Virus record (IMG/VR): IMGVR_UViG_3300021092_000047
Location: 1 to 59,539 of that record
Reading direction: 5' to 3' (one strand)
DNA: 59,539 nucleotides
DNA from: a virus
The translations under genes were made by a program, and so were the position numbers. The notes beneath the pieces were generated by a model. That model was not told where the DNA came from. It was given only the letters and a program-made list of their open reading frames with translations, and did no database searches. This document shows, piece after piece, positions 6,899-23,577 of this stretch (the first letter of the stretch is position 1; each line of letters begins with the position of its first letter).

Positions 6899-6921
6899 CT
6901 AACCCTTTCTTGGTATATCTT

Positions 6922-6990
6922 GCAGAACCCGCACCCGAAGGTGGCTGCATTACACGCGTATGTTTAACGTCTTCACCAGGACGGTGCCGA
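6922..6990 (-). ncRNA. Repeated RNA element, copy 0 (degenerate 3' half)
   Basis: On the - strand it reads stop codon, CGTC/GACG hairpin, TTAAACATACGCGTGTAATG, CAGCC, then a C(UUCG)G-capped hairpin (CACC-TTCG-GGTG) and CGGGTTC. It then diverges from the other copies: the loop and terminator parts are missing. The UUCG tetraloop appears only when read on the - strand, which orients the family. Confidence 0.55.
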
Positions 6991-7293
6991 TCAAATGATT
7001 TCCCATTTCTTATTTGAAAATGGGTGGGCAACGAGCGTGTGCTCGTTGCTTGATTTAGGGGTAGCGAGCAGAAAAATTCCATAGTTTTCCACGTTCCAGT
7101 TTGCTGCTTTAATAGCCGCGGTGACTGCTGCTCTTTTACGGAGTCCGGCGTCACTGAAATTTACGTTTCCGTAACCCGGCTCGTTACTTGGCAACACACT
7201 TTGACAAACAACTACAACTCCAAGCACACCACTAACTGTAGCATACAATGCGACAGCAGCAGAATGCAGGATTCGACAGATGAACAACATCAT
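6991..7293 (-). CDS. 100-aa secreted or membrane-anchored hypothetical protein
   Basis: The start is the first of two ATGs (7293) after an AAGAAGAAAAG stretch. A hydrophobic N-terminus, about residues 5-29 (LHSAAVALYATVSGVLGVVV), is a signal peptide or anchor. The remainder is polar (NVNFSDAGLRKRAAVTAAIKAA). It lies behind terminator hairpin T1 and ahead of RNA element copy 0, the same module layout as the small genes at 19-22.6 kb, so it looks like an outlying member of that belt. Function unknown. Confidence 0.55.
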   Translation of the reverse strand: MMLFICRILHSAAVALYATVSGVLGVVVVCQSVLPSNEPGYGNVNFSDAGLRKRAAVTAAIKAANWNVENYGIFLLATPKSSNEHTLVAHPFSNKKWEII

Positions 7294-7328
7294 GACTTTT
7301 CTTCTTGTGGCCGTAGTATAAATGAAAA

Positions 7329-7363
7329 GAGCCCGCCAAACCATTTACGAATCTGACGGGCTC
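7329..7363 (-). terminator. Terminator-like hairpin T1 of the repeated family
   Basis: GAGCCCG/CGGGCTC stem on the - strand followed by TTTTCATTTAT. The loop contains GTAAATG, complementary (one G-U) to the downstream CATTTAT, whereas other copies have GTGAATG and CATTCAC. This compensatory change supports loop-tail pairing. Confidence 0.6.
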
Positions 7364-7368
7364 TACGC

Positions 7369-7425
7369 GTGTCCTCTGCATTTACCAGGGCTTGGAACCC
7401 GCACTCGCGTCGCTCGTTAAACCTG
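7369..7425 (-). ncRNA. Repeated RNA element, copy 1
   Basis: The - strand reads GGGTTCCAAGCCCTGG then TAAATGCAGAGGACAC just before T1, matching the 3' half of the other copies. The hairpin is CGGG/CCTG with a TTCCAAGC loop. The 5' half (GTGTAATGCAGCC) is replaced by unrelated sequence following the stop of the 87-aa gene. Confidence 0.55.
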
Positions 7426-12442: not shown

Positions 12443-12725
12443 GGTTTGAATTTTTCCTTGTTAAATGTGATACAGCAATTTCTTGCGCTTGACGATACTC
12501 CGCAAGATGAGTTTGGTTTTGCTTTTCAAGTTTAGCCATGACTATCAAGGCTTGATCAAAAGAAGACAACTGAATAGTTTCCAAATACTTCCAGTAGTCT
12601 GAATCAACCCAGCGGTCACGCGAACCCAGCGTTACCTGGGTCGCGTGACCGTTGGAGTTGCAATTGTAGAACACCTTGTACACATCGTACGTGTTCTGGT
12701 CTCTATGTATCAGCAGATTAGCCAT
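12435..12725 (-). CDS. 96-aa hypothetical protein
   Basis: MANLLIHRDQNTYDVYKVFY... has a beta-rich N-terminal half and a C-terminal helix (ALIVMAKLEKQNQTHLAEYR). The start overlaps the AAA+ gene's end by eight bases (GATGGCTAA), so translation is coupled. No family recognised. Its position between the ATPase and the 421-aa gene suggests a shared complex or pathway. Confidence 0.65.
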   Translation of the reverse strand: MANLLIHRDQNTYDVYKVFYNCNSNGHATQVTLGSRDRWVDSDYWKYLETIQLSSFDQALIVMAKLEKQNQTHLAEYRQAQEIAVSHLTRKNSNHE

Positions 12726-18228: not shown

Positions 18229-18290
18229 CTTTTACCTTTCAATAGCTAAAGAAAACCGGAAGGATATCAGAACAACTAAGAGAAAGAAAA

Positions 18291-18416
18291 GGTCACATTA
18301 CATGAACTTGCGAATTGATTCATAGTAACGAACGTCCTGGAACGAGTCAACCAAATAGATTGACTTGTTCCAGGACGTTCGTTCAAGAATCGCATCACAA
18401 GTCACGTAATGTGACC
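18291..18416 (-). repeat. 126-base nested inverted repeat (long hairpin)
   Basis: Inner arms of 23 bases (18328-18350 and 18360-18382) pair with one G-T, leaving a nine-base loop. Outer arms (18291-18310 and 18398-18416) pair over about 18 positions with one substitution and one bulge, and a GATTC/GAATC pairing lies between. The left end is preceded on the + strand by A-rich sequence, giving CCTTTTCTTTCTCTT after the hairpin on the - strand, so it could terminate transcription from csrA. It may instead be a regulatory RNA or a mobile-element remnant. Confidence 0.75.
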
Positions 18417-18437
18417 TGACCCTGCATTCAGGGCAGT

Positions 18438-18629
18438 TTAAGCGTCTTTCTTTGACGCTTGCAAAATTATTTCTTTCCGGAGCACGGAAACCCCCGGAGG
18501 GGCTTCGAAGGCAAGCTGAATTTGCTTGCCTTTAATCTTCAGTACTTTTACAAGTACTGAAGATTTTAAAGTTTGAGGCAGGCCGGAGATTACGACCTCC
18601 TCGCCTGCTTTGCGACTGAGGACTAGCAT
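18438..18629 (-). CDS. csrA: CsrA-like translational regulator
   Basis: 63 aa, begins MLVLSRKAGEEVVISG and contains VKVLKIKGKQIQLAFEAPPG then VSVLRKEI, the CsrA/RsmA fold. CsrA dimers bind GGA motifs in mRNA leaders and block or aid translation. Key RNA-contact positions are kept: the L-x-R of strand 1 and the Arg of VSVxRKEI (the usual His is Leu). A few extra residues (LPQTLKSS) lengthen the strand 1-2 region. The ATG overlaps the upstream 96-aa gene by seven bases. A long hairpin follows. Targets may include the ACAAGGA-containing leaders at 19-22.7 kb (inference). Confidence 0.88.
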   Translation of the reverse strand: MLVLSRKAGEEVVISGLPQTLKSSVLVKVLKIKGKQIQLAFEAPPGVSVLRKEIILQASKKDA

Positions 18630-18913
18630 AGCAAGTCCTCCGCGACAAAGCAGGCTGCCTCAGTGTCCCAGTTGAGGGTCCTGGGACGGCCGTGGGTTCT
18701 GAGGAGCTCCTCGTGGAGGAGCAGAAGCTCCTCCGGAGAGAGCGTGTCAACCACACTCTCCTCAACCCCGACCAACTCAGGTCGGGCTTGAGGAGATTCA
18801 ACTTGAAATCCGTCGTTGAGGAGCGACGGATGTTGTTTCATGATCTTGCGACTGCGGATCAACCGCCGCGCAAAATCCGCGTTGTAAAACGCGGCGTTGG
18901 AGACGCTACTCAT
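18623..18913 (-). CDS. 96-aa hypothetical protein upstream of csrA
   Basis: MSSVSNAAFYNADFARRLIR... basic N-terminus followed by an acidic, Leu/Glu-rich helix (LSPEELLLLHEELL) that could form a coiled coil. AAGGA precedes the ATG by six bases. Its end overlaps the csrA start, so the two are co-translated; it could modulate CsrA (as FliW does elsewhere), but it does not resemble FliW. Function unknown. Confidence 0.6.
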   Translation of the reverse strand: MSSVSNAAFYNADFARRLIRSRKIMKQHPSLLNDGFQVESPQARPELVGVEESVVDTLSPEELLLLHEELLRTHGRPRTLNWDTEAACFVAEDLLC

Positions 18914-19141: not shown

Positions 19142-19175
19142 GAGCCCTTGGACCATTCACGAATCCGACGGGCTC
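19142..19175 (-). terminator. Terminator-like hairpin T2 of the repeated family
   Basis: GAGCCC/GGGCTC outer stem with a GGA/TCC inner stem on the - strand, loop containing GTGAATG, then TTTT and two CATTCAC heptamers before AGGAG. The middle of the stem has mismatches, so it is weaker than T3, T4 or T6. Confidence 0.6.
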
Positions 19176-19180
19176 ATTTT

Positions 19181-19480
19181 GTGTCCTCTGCATTTATCAG
19201 GGCTTGGAACCTGCACCTTGCGGTGGCTGCATTACACGCCGAAGTTTCATCGGCACCCCATTGCGCAGAGTGGGTTTCTCCAGGTAGGTAACCTGTATAC
19301 ACGCAGAGTCTAACACTGCGGTATGGGCGATTCATTGCAGAAGATCTGCAATGCTACGGTTCCTCCCCGTACTTTACACCAACGCTACAAACCCATACGC
19401 TAATCCACCGCAGCCGGGTTCCGCTGCGGGCTCGAGGAGACGTACTCCCATCTTCTCGCATTCTCTGACCGCGTCTAAGC
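19181..19480 (-). ncRNA. Repeated RNA element copy 2 with extended structured leader
   Basis: The 3' part reads GTGTAATGCAGCC, a GCAA-capped hairpin (CACC/GGTG), CAGG-TTCCAAGC-CCTG, TAAATGCAGAGGACAC. Upstream are further hairpins: GCCGA/TCGGC with loop TGAAACT, ACCCA/TGGGT (varying to ACCTA/TAGGT in copy 4), CAGGT/ACCTG, CGCAG/CTGCG and a nine-bp CATTGCAGA/TCTGCAATG. No convincing gene lies in these 300 bases; a 60-codon frame at 19354-19536 lacks a ribosome site. Confidence 0.65.
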
Positions 19481-19765: not shown

Positions 19766-19800
19766 GAGCCCACCGGATCATTCACGAATCCGGTGGGCTC
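19766..19800 (-). terminator. Terminator-like hairpin T3 of the repeated family
   Basis: Perfect 13-bp stem (GAGCCCACCGGAT and its complement) on the - strand followed by TTTT. The loop carries GTGAATG, complementary to two CATTCAC heptamers that lie between the T run and GGGAG of the next gene. Confidence 0.78.
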
Positions 19801-19805
19801 AGCAC

Positions 19806-19895
19806 GTGTCCTCTGCATTTATCAGGGCTTGGAACCTGCACCTTGCGGTGGCTGCATTACACGCGTATGTTTAATGTCCTCGCCAGGACGCGCGC
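19806..19895 (-). ncRNA. Repeated RNA element, copy 3
   Basis: On the - strand: GTCC/GGAC hairpin, ATTAAACATACGCGTGTAAT, GCAGCC, GCAA-capped CACC/GGTG hairpin, CAGG-TTCCAAGC-CCTG hairpin and GAGGACAC, then hairpin T3. Begins just after the stop of the 144-aa gene. Confidence 0.65.
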
Positions 19896-20335: not shown

Positions 20336-20370
20336 ATCTCTTTTCCTTGTGAATGAGGTATGAATGTAAA

Positions 20371-20403
20371 GAGCCCTCGGACCATTCACGAATCCGAGGG
20401 CTC
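20371..20403 (-). terminator. Terminator-like hairpin T4 of the repeated family
   Basis: Perfect 11-bp stem GAGCCCTCGGA with its complement on the - strand, loop with GTGAATG, then TTTACATTCAT and a second heptamer CATTCAC joined to AAGGA. Confidence 0.75.
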
Positions 20404-20408
20404 CACAT

Positions 20409-20605
20409 GTGTCCTCTGCATTTATCAGGGCTTGGAACCTGCTGTTTTTTTCAGAACAGGCTGCATTACACGCCGAAGTTTCATCGGCACCCTATTTCCA
20501 CAGTAGGTTTCTGCGTGATTCACAGTGAAGCACAACCCCGCTCTTTTCGTAAGAACGGTTACGCTAGTCCTTACACGCGTGTTTAACGTCCCGCCGGACG
20601 GTGCC
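20409..20605 (-). ncRNA. Repeated RNA element copy 4 with structured leader
   Basis: The 3' half is as in copy 2 but with the apical hairpin changed to CTGTT/AACAG. Upstream are GCCGA/TCGGC (loop TGAAACT), ACCTA/TAGGT, and an eight-bp hairpin CCGTTCTT/AAGAGCGG whose one U-G pair is only allowed on the - strand. A second partial start of the element (GACGTTAAACACGCGTGTAA) lies at 20573-20592, right after the 26-aa gene. Confidence 0.65.
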
Positions 20606-20688: not shown

Positions 20689-20708
20689 GGTCTTTCTCCT
20701 TGTGAATG

Positions 20709-21074: not shown

Positions 21075-21107
21075 GAGCCCTTGGACCATTTATGAATCCA
21101 AGGGCTC
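21075..21107 (-). terminator. Terminator-like hairpin T6 of the repeated family
   Basis: Perfect 11-bp stem GAGCCCTTGGA with its complement on the - strand, then TTTTCGTTCAC. The loop is ATAAATG, so complementarity to the downstream CATTCAC is only partial. Confidence 0.72.
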
Positions 21108-21110
21108 AAC

Positions 21111-21374
21111 ATGTCTCAAGCTCAGGCTATGCAATTTCCGGCCTTTCCGCCCCGTCGCTACCCTCCCTCTGACCTGCCGGTCTGAGAGAAGGCAATCGGT
21201 GGCCCGGGCAGGATTCCGACTTGGGGAGTCAACCCAAGTGGATTATCCTACTGTACCGTCCGTACCACCCATGGGCAGAGTATGAACTCAGCATGGTGGC
21301 AACCCGAATCTCAGTGGTGACTAAACCACCTGTCGGCGGGGCGGGAAGACCTGAAACTGCCACAACTAGGAAAG
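21111..21374 (-). other. Gene-free structured segment, cloverleaf-like but not a tRNA
   Basis: 264 bases between hairpins T7 and T6 without a credible ORF. It contains a seven-bp ACTTGGG/CCCAAGT hairpin, an AGGAT/ATCCT pairing around it and a GGTGG/CCACC pairing around both, plus GTGGT/ACCAC. The layout resembles a tRNA, but arm lengths, the T-loop and position 37 do not fit. Confidence 0.4.
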
Positions 21375-21407
21375 GAGCCCTTGGACCATTTATGAATCCA
21401 AGGGCTC
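21375..21407 (-). terminator. Terminator-like hairpin T7 of the repeated family
   Basis: Perfect 11-bp stem GAGCCCTTGGA with its complement, eight bases after the stop of the 210-aa gene; followed by CTTTCC rather than a clean U run. The loop is ATAAATG and no CATTCAC follows, so this copy acts, if at all, only as a 3'-end hairpin. Confidence 0.6.
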
Positions 21408-21414
21408 TAGTGCG

Positions 21415-22047
21415 TTAGGTGGACACTGCTACCTTCACGGTCCAGTACCCACCGCCCATGCCGGGCGCATGGGTCGAGTCCAGAATGCTGGCCCCTTGCG
21501 GAGACAGCACGACTGGGGATTCCCATCCATTTACCTCCCCAGGAGCGACCGTCACGGTCACTCCAGTGGAAGTGGCAGCCGACTTTGGGCTATCCCAAAA
21601 TCCGTCTGCCCGCTGGCGGCGGGTCGGCGAGCCGAAGCATACCACCACGACTTCGACGACACCCCCGGACGCCTCGGCCTCGGCGGCAAACGCCTCCAGG
21701 GCGTCCAACCGCTGAGCTGTCGAGGCAAACTCGGCGCGCACGATCTCGCGCGCAACGGCCAACGGGAGGCCGATCGCGGCGATGAGCTCGCCCCATGAGG
21801 CGAACGAATCGCCCCAAGTTCCATGCATGGGGCTGACGAGCTCGACTGCTCGCACTCCTGGTGCGAGCAGTAGGGTGTAAGTGGTATTGCTCCACTTACC
21901 ACTTTTCTGGTAGTCCGCGGCCGCGATGGCCACGAACCCGGGGATATTCTTGCCTACAAACTTGCAGGCCTCCCCGGCTTTCGTCAGATAAAGCCGGGGG
22001 TACCGGCCTGCCGGGAGCAAACCGTCGTTCCACTTCAGTGTATTCAT
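21415..22047 (-). CDS. 210-aa hypothetical protein
   Basis: MNTLKWNDGLLPAGRYPRLY..., start supported by AGGAAC upstream of the ATG at 22047. GC-rich codon usage, no signal peptide; central helix LDALEAFAAEAEASGGVVEV and Gly-rich C-terminus (HAPGMGGGYWTVKVAV). No catalytic motif seen. It has RNA element copy 5 as its leader but no GAGCCC hairpin in front, differing from its neighbours. Function unknown. Confidence 0.6.
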   Translation of the reverse strand: MNTLKWNDGLLPAGRYPRLYLTKAGEACKFVGKNIPGFVAIAAADYQKSGKWSNTTYTLLLAPGVRAVELVSPMHGTWGDSFASWGELIAAIGLPLAVAREIVRAEFASTAQRLDALEAFAAEAEASGGVVEVVVVCFGSPTRRQRADGFWDSPKSAATSTGVTVTVAPGEVNGWESPVVLSPQGASILDSTHAPGMGGGYWTVKVAVST

Positions 22048-22649: not shown

Positions 22650-22684
22650 GATCTTTCTCCTTGTGAATGAGGTATGAATGTAAA

Positions 22685-22718
22685 GAGCCCGTTGGACCAT
22701 TCACGAATCCAAGGGCTC
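22685..22718 (-). terminator. Terminator-like hairpin T8 of the repeated family
   Basis: GAGCCC/GGGCTC plus TTGGA/TCCAA stem with one mismatch on the - strand, GTGAATG loop, TTTACATTCAT, then CATTCAC and AAGGAG. Confidence 0.68.
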
Positions 22719-22723
22719 CACAT

Positions 22724-22781
22724 GTGTCCTCTGCATTTATCAGGGCTTGGAACCTGCCTCACTGTGAGGGCTGCATTACAC
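22724..22781 (-). ncRNA. Repeated RNA element, copy 6
   Basis: GTGTAATGCAGCC, apical hairpin CTCA/TGAG with a three-base loop, CAGG-TTCCAAGC-CCTG, TAAATGCAGAGGACAC. Its 5' side continues without a break into the large structured block at 22782-23577, so it may be that RNA's 3' domain. Confidence 0.6.
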
Positions 22782-23577
22782 GCCGCAACTCTATAAAGAC
22801 CCTCACTGATCTTTACGCTTGCGGCAATGTGGTCCTGTAACTGGACCGCTTAGAGAGTGAGCTCTGCATTTTTCTACCTGTATGCTCAGGCTCTTATCGT
22901 AGGAATACGAGCAGTTTCCGCTTGCTAAGCGATCCGGAACTTCCCCGAATTAATTACAGGCCCCTACGCGGTAGCTTTGCGTATCATTTTACGTTTGACA
23001 AAACGCCAGACTCACACTGGGTGTCTTAATCGTTTTTGATCAAAACATCTGCTAACTTTATTTCAGTGGAGTTAGTAACCACGTCGCTTATCATTTAACG
23101 AGGAAGTTCTCCTCGGGACGTTCACTGTTTTTCAGCTTCACCGCAACTCGTAAAAGAATGAGTCGCAGCGCTGGTCAAGACTTCAGTGACTTAGAAGTAG
23201 TGCCAGACAGTTTTTCGTTTTCTGGGGGATTAGTCCAACCCCGAAACTGTGCCATGTGTACTCATACACACCCCACAGTAATGCTTACATCAGATCTCTT
23301 ATAGAAGCAAGAGATCGAGCTAAAGACGACTCAAACGCTAGCCGCCTGCGAATAGTCTAGTGACAAAAAGAACGCGGTTACACGCGGTCACTAGATTACT
23401 CGACTTTAGCCGGTGAAAGTGTTTTTGCTTACACACTTCGTCCGACCAGAGGAGACTTAAGTCTTTCCTCATCTTATTCTGACACGTTTTGTATCAGAAT
23501 TTAGATTTGGAATAGGTAGGTTTTGCCTCAATCAATAATGACACGATTTTGATTAAAATTTAGATTTATTTGCAGGC
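22782..23577 (-). ncRNA. Large structured noncoding RNA (about 0.8 kb)
   Basis: No ORF of note on either strand, but at least fifteen consecutive inverted repeats: GCCGCAA/TTGCGGC, TAAAGA/TCTTTA, GGTCC/GGACC, TCGTA/TACGA, CTAACT/AGTTAG, CGAGGA/TCCTCG, ACTTC/GAAGT, ACAGTTT/AAACTGT, TGTGTA/TACACA, GATCTCTT/AAGAGATC, TCTAGTGAC/GTCACTAGA enclosing CGCG/CGCG, AAGTGT/ACACTT, GAGGA/TCCTC, TTCTGA/TCAGAA and AATCA/TGATT. Strand is inferred from the surrounding operon, A-rich loops and a hairpin terminator downstream on the - strand; a GGAA tetraloop and one U-G pair would argue for the + strand. Size and phage context recall GOLLD/ROOL RNAs, but I cannot match their consensus by eye. Confidence 0.7.

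Follow-up and report, generated by a model that had tools for sequence, protein, structure and literature searches.

A phage-encoded CsrA at the 3′ tail of a small-gene belt whose leaders carry probable twister ribozymes

The stretch of DNA analysed here, hereafter the window, is one 59.5-kb IMG/VR record (59,539 nucleotides) in which the minus strand carries nearly all genes. It is very likely a fragment of a larger phage genome, because several of the relatives found through their terminase are contigs of 157-235 kb; the nearest isolates are distant, with Salmonella phage Arash at 30% over the terminase. A belt of small genes is transcribed from 23.9 to 18.4 kb on the minus strand and its last gene is csrA (Table 1). 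The original prediction had set csrA at the head of this belt, which is the wrong end: read on the minus strand, csrA comes at the 3′ end. Defence-gene and PHROG searches with the belt proteins gave no assignment.

Table 1. Genes and RNA features at and around the csrA locus, in window coordinates
Feature	Position	Strand	Remarks
csrA	18438..18629	(-)	Complete 63-aa ORF starting at ATG; downstream member of the orf96-csrA pair
orf96	18623..18913	(-)	7-nt overlap with csrA; homologue directly 5′ of a csrA or csrA-like gene in seven lineages
Start-site hairpin	18603..18655	(-)	Inverted repeat I3; buries csrA Shine-Dalgarno (GGAGGAC) and AUG
Near-perfect palindrome, ~126 nt	18290..18417	(-)	Just 3′ of csrA; MFE -92.1 kcal/mol (168 nt), z -15
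Probable twister-P1 A	19180..19238	(-)	Before orf32; 57.7 bits, E 2.2e-10
Probable twister-P1 B	19805..19863	(-)	Before orf83; 60.5 bits, E 3.5e-11
Probable twister-P1 C	20408..20472	(-)	Before orf144; 62.3 bits, E 1e-11
Probable twister-P1 G	22723..22782	(-)	Before orf152; 58.4 bits, E 1.3e-10
Degenerate twister-P1 H	7368..7423	(-)	Before gene 7292-6991; 23.9 bits, E 2.6e-4
Leader hairpin A	19142..19175	(-)	Repeat families D2, D3; fold
Leader hairpin B	19766..19800	(-)	Repeat and fold; compensated stem ACCGGAU/AUCCGGU, then UUUU
Leader hairpin C	20371..20403	(-)	Repeat and fold
Leader hairpin E	21075..21107	(-)	Repeat and fold; no twister in front
Leader hairpin F	21375..21407	(-)	Repeat and fold; no gene behind; starts structured stretch 21415-21110
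Leader hairpin G	22685..22718	(-)	Repeat and fold
Leader hairpin H	7329..7363	(-)	Fold and alignment A3; stem and loop changed with their partners
ACAAGGA	20344..20350	(-)	Shine-Dalgarno of orf144
ACAAGGA	20697..20703	(-)	Shine-Dalgarno of orf26
ACAAGGA	22658..22664	(-)	Shine-Dalgarno of orf152
Candidate large structured non-coding RNA	22790..23490	(-)	True 5′ head of the belt; z -5.7

That the window encodes a complete CsrA-like protein, as originally predicted, is borne out by the full 63-aa open reading frame and by comparison with CsrA/RsmA profiles, where the product scores 56.4 bits against Pfam PF02599 (cut-off 27) and matches PHROG 9500, 'CsrA-like regulator', at E 3.8e-12. It falls under the NCBIfam equivalog cut-offs of TIGR00202 (51 against 70.1) and NF002469 (47.1 against 73). 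Judged by these profiles, the product is a member of the CsrA family that is not filed as a bacterial CsrA equivalog. In CsrA it is Leu4, Arg6 and the V-x-V-x-R block (with Arg44) that touch RNA, and alignment with 22 phage CsrAs, plus an alignment with E. coli CsrA, shows all of them to be present here, with Arg51 as the Arg44 equivalent; Met1, Leu2, Arg6, Ala43 and Arg51 are invariant across the 23 phage copies. Likeness to CsrA structures is detectable in the sequence, and an AlphaFold2 model (pLDDT 85.5) has the β-strand fold with a C-terminal helix, for which the 14 best PDB matches are, without exception, CsrA/RsmA/RsmE chains (E 0.003-0.05, TM 0.48-0.69), with no convincing fold matches outside the family. 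The RNA-contact residues, whose possible loss on modelling had been raised, are kept, and the model folds like CsrA/RsmA/RsmE. The protein thus shares profile, contact residues and fold with the family (PF02599), while it differs from E. coli CsrA by a 7-residue insertion in an early loop, and its gene differs from others of the family in being paired with orf96, the protein of which is without known family.

The CsrA protein is therefore genuine but ordinary in kind, as phage csrA genes are already familiar. A 2020 survey of 2,517 phages found them in 30 (PMC7366521). They were described from many GenBank and IMG/VR phage records in 2021 and proposed to lower CRISPR-Cas expression (PMC8450108), and include a moron gene in a Burkholderia phage (PMC9144972). 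In a CRISPRi-ART study, knock-down of the csrA homologue PTXU04_00028 gave smaller plaques (PMC11879866); this gene is phage-borne like the one described here, but it belongs to another phage.

The gene directly upstream, orf96, has homologues in the relatives (profile search, E 1e-37 to 5e-21), with F36, Q37, P45, G49, D56, P60 and L63 invariant in the alignment. The gene order g23578, variable small genes, orf96, csrA, g17899 is kept in G001, G004, G005-G007, G009 and G010, with orf96 and csrA abutting or overlapping in G004, G007 and G010 and about 25 nt apart in G001. At this spot, relatives G011 and G003 retain orf96 next to a csrA-like gene that has diverged, and in remoter relatives csrA adjoins a g16750 homologue. 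Overall, csrA is found in 33 of 45 terminase-selected relatives, a count that leaves out the window itself and three records picked through csrA; 32 exceed the Pfam cut-off and several have two copies, and absences carry little weight because many of the records are fragments.

The hairpin over the csrA start has 20 bp (MFE -35.6 kcal/mol, z -4.1), and its 5′ arm is the end of orf96. Since the csrA start is buried in a structure that a ribosome finishing orf96 would open, thereby freeing the start, translation of csrA is probably coupled to that of orf96. The hairpin was seen in the window only, with no counterpart in the start regions of the relatives, and hence hairpin-based coupling may be special to this phage. 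Like the window with its palindrome 3′ of csrA, relative G010 has a hairpin directly 3′ of the gene (L151 10968-11031).

Within the belt, four leaders contain elements found by Rfam in E-value mode (RF03160). Their scores of 57.7-62.3 bits do not reach the gathering score of 67.2, but neither do most of the other phage twisters found, and of 28 phage records only two pass it. All four share with the type-P1 twister the conserved core blocks (UAA, GCC, CAAGCCC, UAAA and GAGG) and helices P1-P4, all have the U-A cleavage step, and helix P3 is compensated across copies, with 94.7% of cells paired against 84.2% when shuffled. We call them probable type-P1 twister ribozymes, with self-cleavage predicted, because they lie below the strict Rfam threshold although the core is complete and the helices covary. 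Cutting at the U-A step would divide the belt transcript about 122-132 nt before each start codon, so that each small gene would obtain its own mRNA with twister, hairpin and Shine-Dalgarno at the 5′ end.

A strict exact pattern built on the window twister had zero matches, while a looser sequence pattern found P1 twisters at 23 loci in 23 other viral contigs. In most of these, and in the gut phage record MT835795.1, the order is stop, short hairpin, twister, Shine-Dalgarno and start, with the start codon commonly 20-43 nt after the pattern. These records hold one to three P1 twisters each, compared with four good copies and remnants in the window, where each twister also differs from type-P1 RF03160 in an added leader of hairpin plus CAUUCAC box. 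One remnant is a truncated copy near 6960-6920 on the minus strand, recognised by eye; together with the degenerate copy H it belongs to a unit of twister-hairpin leader and small gene at 6920-7425 (-), 12 kb away and flanked by the truncated twister, as if a cassette had moved. In the open-access literature searched, no paper was found on twister arrays between phage genes. To our knowledge the natural function of the twister class is unsettled, and leaders such as these, in which phages place twisters between genes, offer a possible biological role for it.

About 9 nt after each twister stands a strong hairpin with a GAGCCC...GGGCUC stem and a 7-nt loop, followed by one or two CAUUCAC boxes and then the Shine-Dalgarno; in copies D, E and F no twister precedes the hairpin. 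The stems differ between copies by matched changes, for which the inner stem alone counts, as the outer one is misaligned when MAFFT with RNAalifold is applied to the full-length leader. The loop sequence GUGAAUG is complementary to the CAUUCAC box, and copy H has changed both (GUAAAUG and CAUUUAU), whereas copy E breaks the pairing. This complementarity suggests a pseudoknot near the ribosome site. It could be argued that the hairpin and the U run behind it serve as an attenuator or terminator and not as a translation leader, with the twister only trimming read-through, and hairpins B and E, which are followed by UUUU, do score as terminator-like. However, every copy except F is closely followed by a start codon that has a Shine-Dalgarno or a comparable sequence, and the loop-box complementarity with its matching change in H, even with the exception of E, points towards the ribosome site, so that we regard termination as an unlikely role. 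The gene behind leader G, orf152, appears to start at ATT (window 22652; AAGGAGAAAGATC-ATT), where the other leaders have ATG, and its protein looks secreted.

At the 5′ head of the belt, 22790-23490 on the minus strand folds far better than its shuffles (z -5.7). It has 71-74% DNA identity to G002/G012 and G003 with no shared open reading frame, and 20 of its predicted base pairs are compensated on both sides. Two exact patterns taken from it match only G002, G012 and G003, and it has no Rfam match. It contains the palindrome UUUUGAUCAAAA. We propose it as a candidate for an apparently undescribed large structured RNA, with a model that is preliminary, being built on the window and the sequences of two distinct relatives (G002 and G012 share one sequence over the stretch compared). 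If confirmed, this RNA of about 700 nt would join a short list of large structured phage RNAs, and together with the corrected anatomy of the locus it is where the value of the present analysis lies. A second non-coding stretch, 21110-21415 (-), is 306 nt long, opens with leader hairpin F and folds at z -6.6; it is absent from all searched relatives. A 40-nt element, CTAAAT...GTGTCATTATTATATGAGG, perhaps promoter-like or structured, recurs in several relatives, both behind g23578 and inside the zone, at window 23458-23567, L145 7821-7969, L146 11007-11046 and 12426-12465, L149 6618-6657 and 8318-8357, and L151 8316-8412, 9396-9492 and 10028-10124.

Whether csrA and the leaders belong together can be judged from their distribution. 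RF03160 occurs in 0 of 48 relatives, 36 of which have csrA matches; no P1 twister is found in the terminase-picked relatives, 33 of 45 of which carry csrA; and csrA is present in 0 of the 24 other records with P1 twisters (the 23 viral contigs and MT835795.1). The expectation that related phages keep the gene and the leaders together thus fails in both directions for the P1-twister leaders, and csrA is independent of P1 twisters. Some co-occurrence does exist, as relative G010 combines csrA with a twister in the corresponding zone (L151 9504-9568, 38.1 against a threshold of 37.6), so that ribozymes recur in a small-gene zone but are of another type, P5; the full-Rfam scan of this zone covered six relatives.

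We favour, at a probability of roughly 0.6, an ordinary phage CsrA that acts in trans, mainly on host mRNAs, and sits beside an unrelated, ribozyme-processed cargo zone. On the best reading, the belt upstream of csrA is a separate and hypervariable zone of cargo. CsrA would cover GGA sites close to the ribosome-binding sites of host messages, and perhaps of the phage's own. Reprogramming of host mRNAs, which the original prediction had offered as one option, appears a reasonable function by analogy, since phage csrA genes have been reported and one knock-down shrinks plaques (PMC8450108; PMC11879866). As csrA is common in this uncultivated large-phage lineage, where it is paired with orf96, the lineage lends itself to studies of the function of phage CsrAs.

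A more integrated arrangement can be envisaged, in which the whole belt forms a regulatory RNA island: an RNA of about 700 nt, representing a new class, would head the transcript, the twisters would cut this transcript into separate mRNAs for the small genes, each with the common hairpin/pseudoknot leader, and orf96-csrA would encode an RNA-binding protein that regulates either the large RNA or the host. We regard this as a tentative possibility, and clearly less probable than the trans-acting CsrA beside unrelated cargo.

It is also conceivable, if rather improbable, that among phage RNAs CsrA acts chiefly on its own orf96-csrA message, the 3′ part of which is rich in GGA. Bacterial csrA represses its own translation, which we count in favour of such autoregulation. 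With 11 GGA in 300 nt near 18889, the orf96/csrA region ranks with the GGA-dense parts of the minus strand, and upstream of the csrA start one GGA lies in a potential loop, GUCCCA-GGACCCUCAAC-UGGGAC. However, GGA occurs in minus-strand loops no more often than in shuffles (34 against 35.8), and the start regions of the relatives have no comparable structure.

The original prediction had also proposed that CsrA binds ACAAGGA in the leaders and thereby silences or times the small genes, and this we now think quite unlikely. The three ACAAGGA sites are exactly where they had been reported, on the minus strand, csrA and the leaders are close neighbours, and ACANGGA stands at the ribosome site of five belt starts against 2 of 37 elsewhere. 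These, however, are copies of one repeated leader and not independent, and the AAGGA(G) within them is the Shine-Dalgarno itself, a few nt before the start codon. As the core of a CsrA consensus ACAAGGA does not stand out, for it occurs in the window at chance frequency (11 against 7.6 +/- 2.7 expected, with 16 of 100 shuffles reaching 11), as does ACANGGA (23 against 25.3 expected), and no leader comes within two mismatches of the 12-nt consensus RUACARGGAUGU. Within the 30 nt upstream of the start codon, 7 of 10 belt genes have ANGGA, compared with 15 of 37 elsewhere (Fisher p = 0.15). In the predicted folds of leaders A-H the GGA lies outside hairpin loops; CsrA sites outside loops can also bind, so loop absence does not exclude binding. 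Leader H (7366-7290) keeps its hairpin but has the ribosome site AAGAAG, which has no GGA. Finally, csrA and the P1-twister leaders do not travel together, and an identical ACAAGGAGG follows the twister of MT835795.1, an unrelated gut phage record that lacks csrA. The attractive CsrA-leader link is therefore removed as unsupported, with testable links in its place.

That csrA is a decaying passenger, functionless in the phage, is the least probable account, for although identity to the nearest syntenic copies amounts to only 22-32% and G011 and G003 retain only diverged csrA-like genes, the five residues named above are invariant in the 23 phage copies, the reading frame is open, synteny is kept and csrA persists in the majority of relatives given above.

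Three further candidates were set aside. A perfect 12-nt CsrA consensus at 32924-32913 (-) is taken as chance, lying inside coding gene 33904-32249, with a weak fold no better than shuffles and no conservation in five relatives; a CsrB-like decoy RNA is not indicated by any cluster of loop GGA above shuffles on the minus strand; and GGATTCGTGAATGGTCC, tried as a tag for relatives, had a single match (L030), within a coding region and thus by chance. Elsewhere, a strong hairpin at 12609-12655 (-), with a weak miRNA-precursor score, apparently lies inside gene 12725-12435, and the small-gene zone of relative G003 contains a tRNA gene (69 bits; L166 3543-3616).
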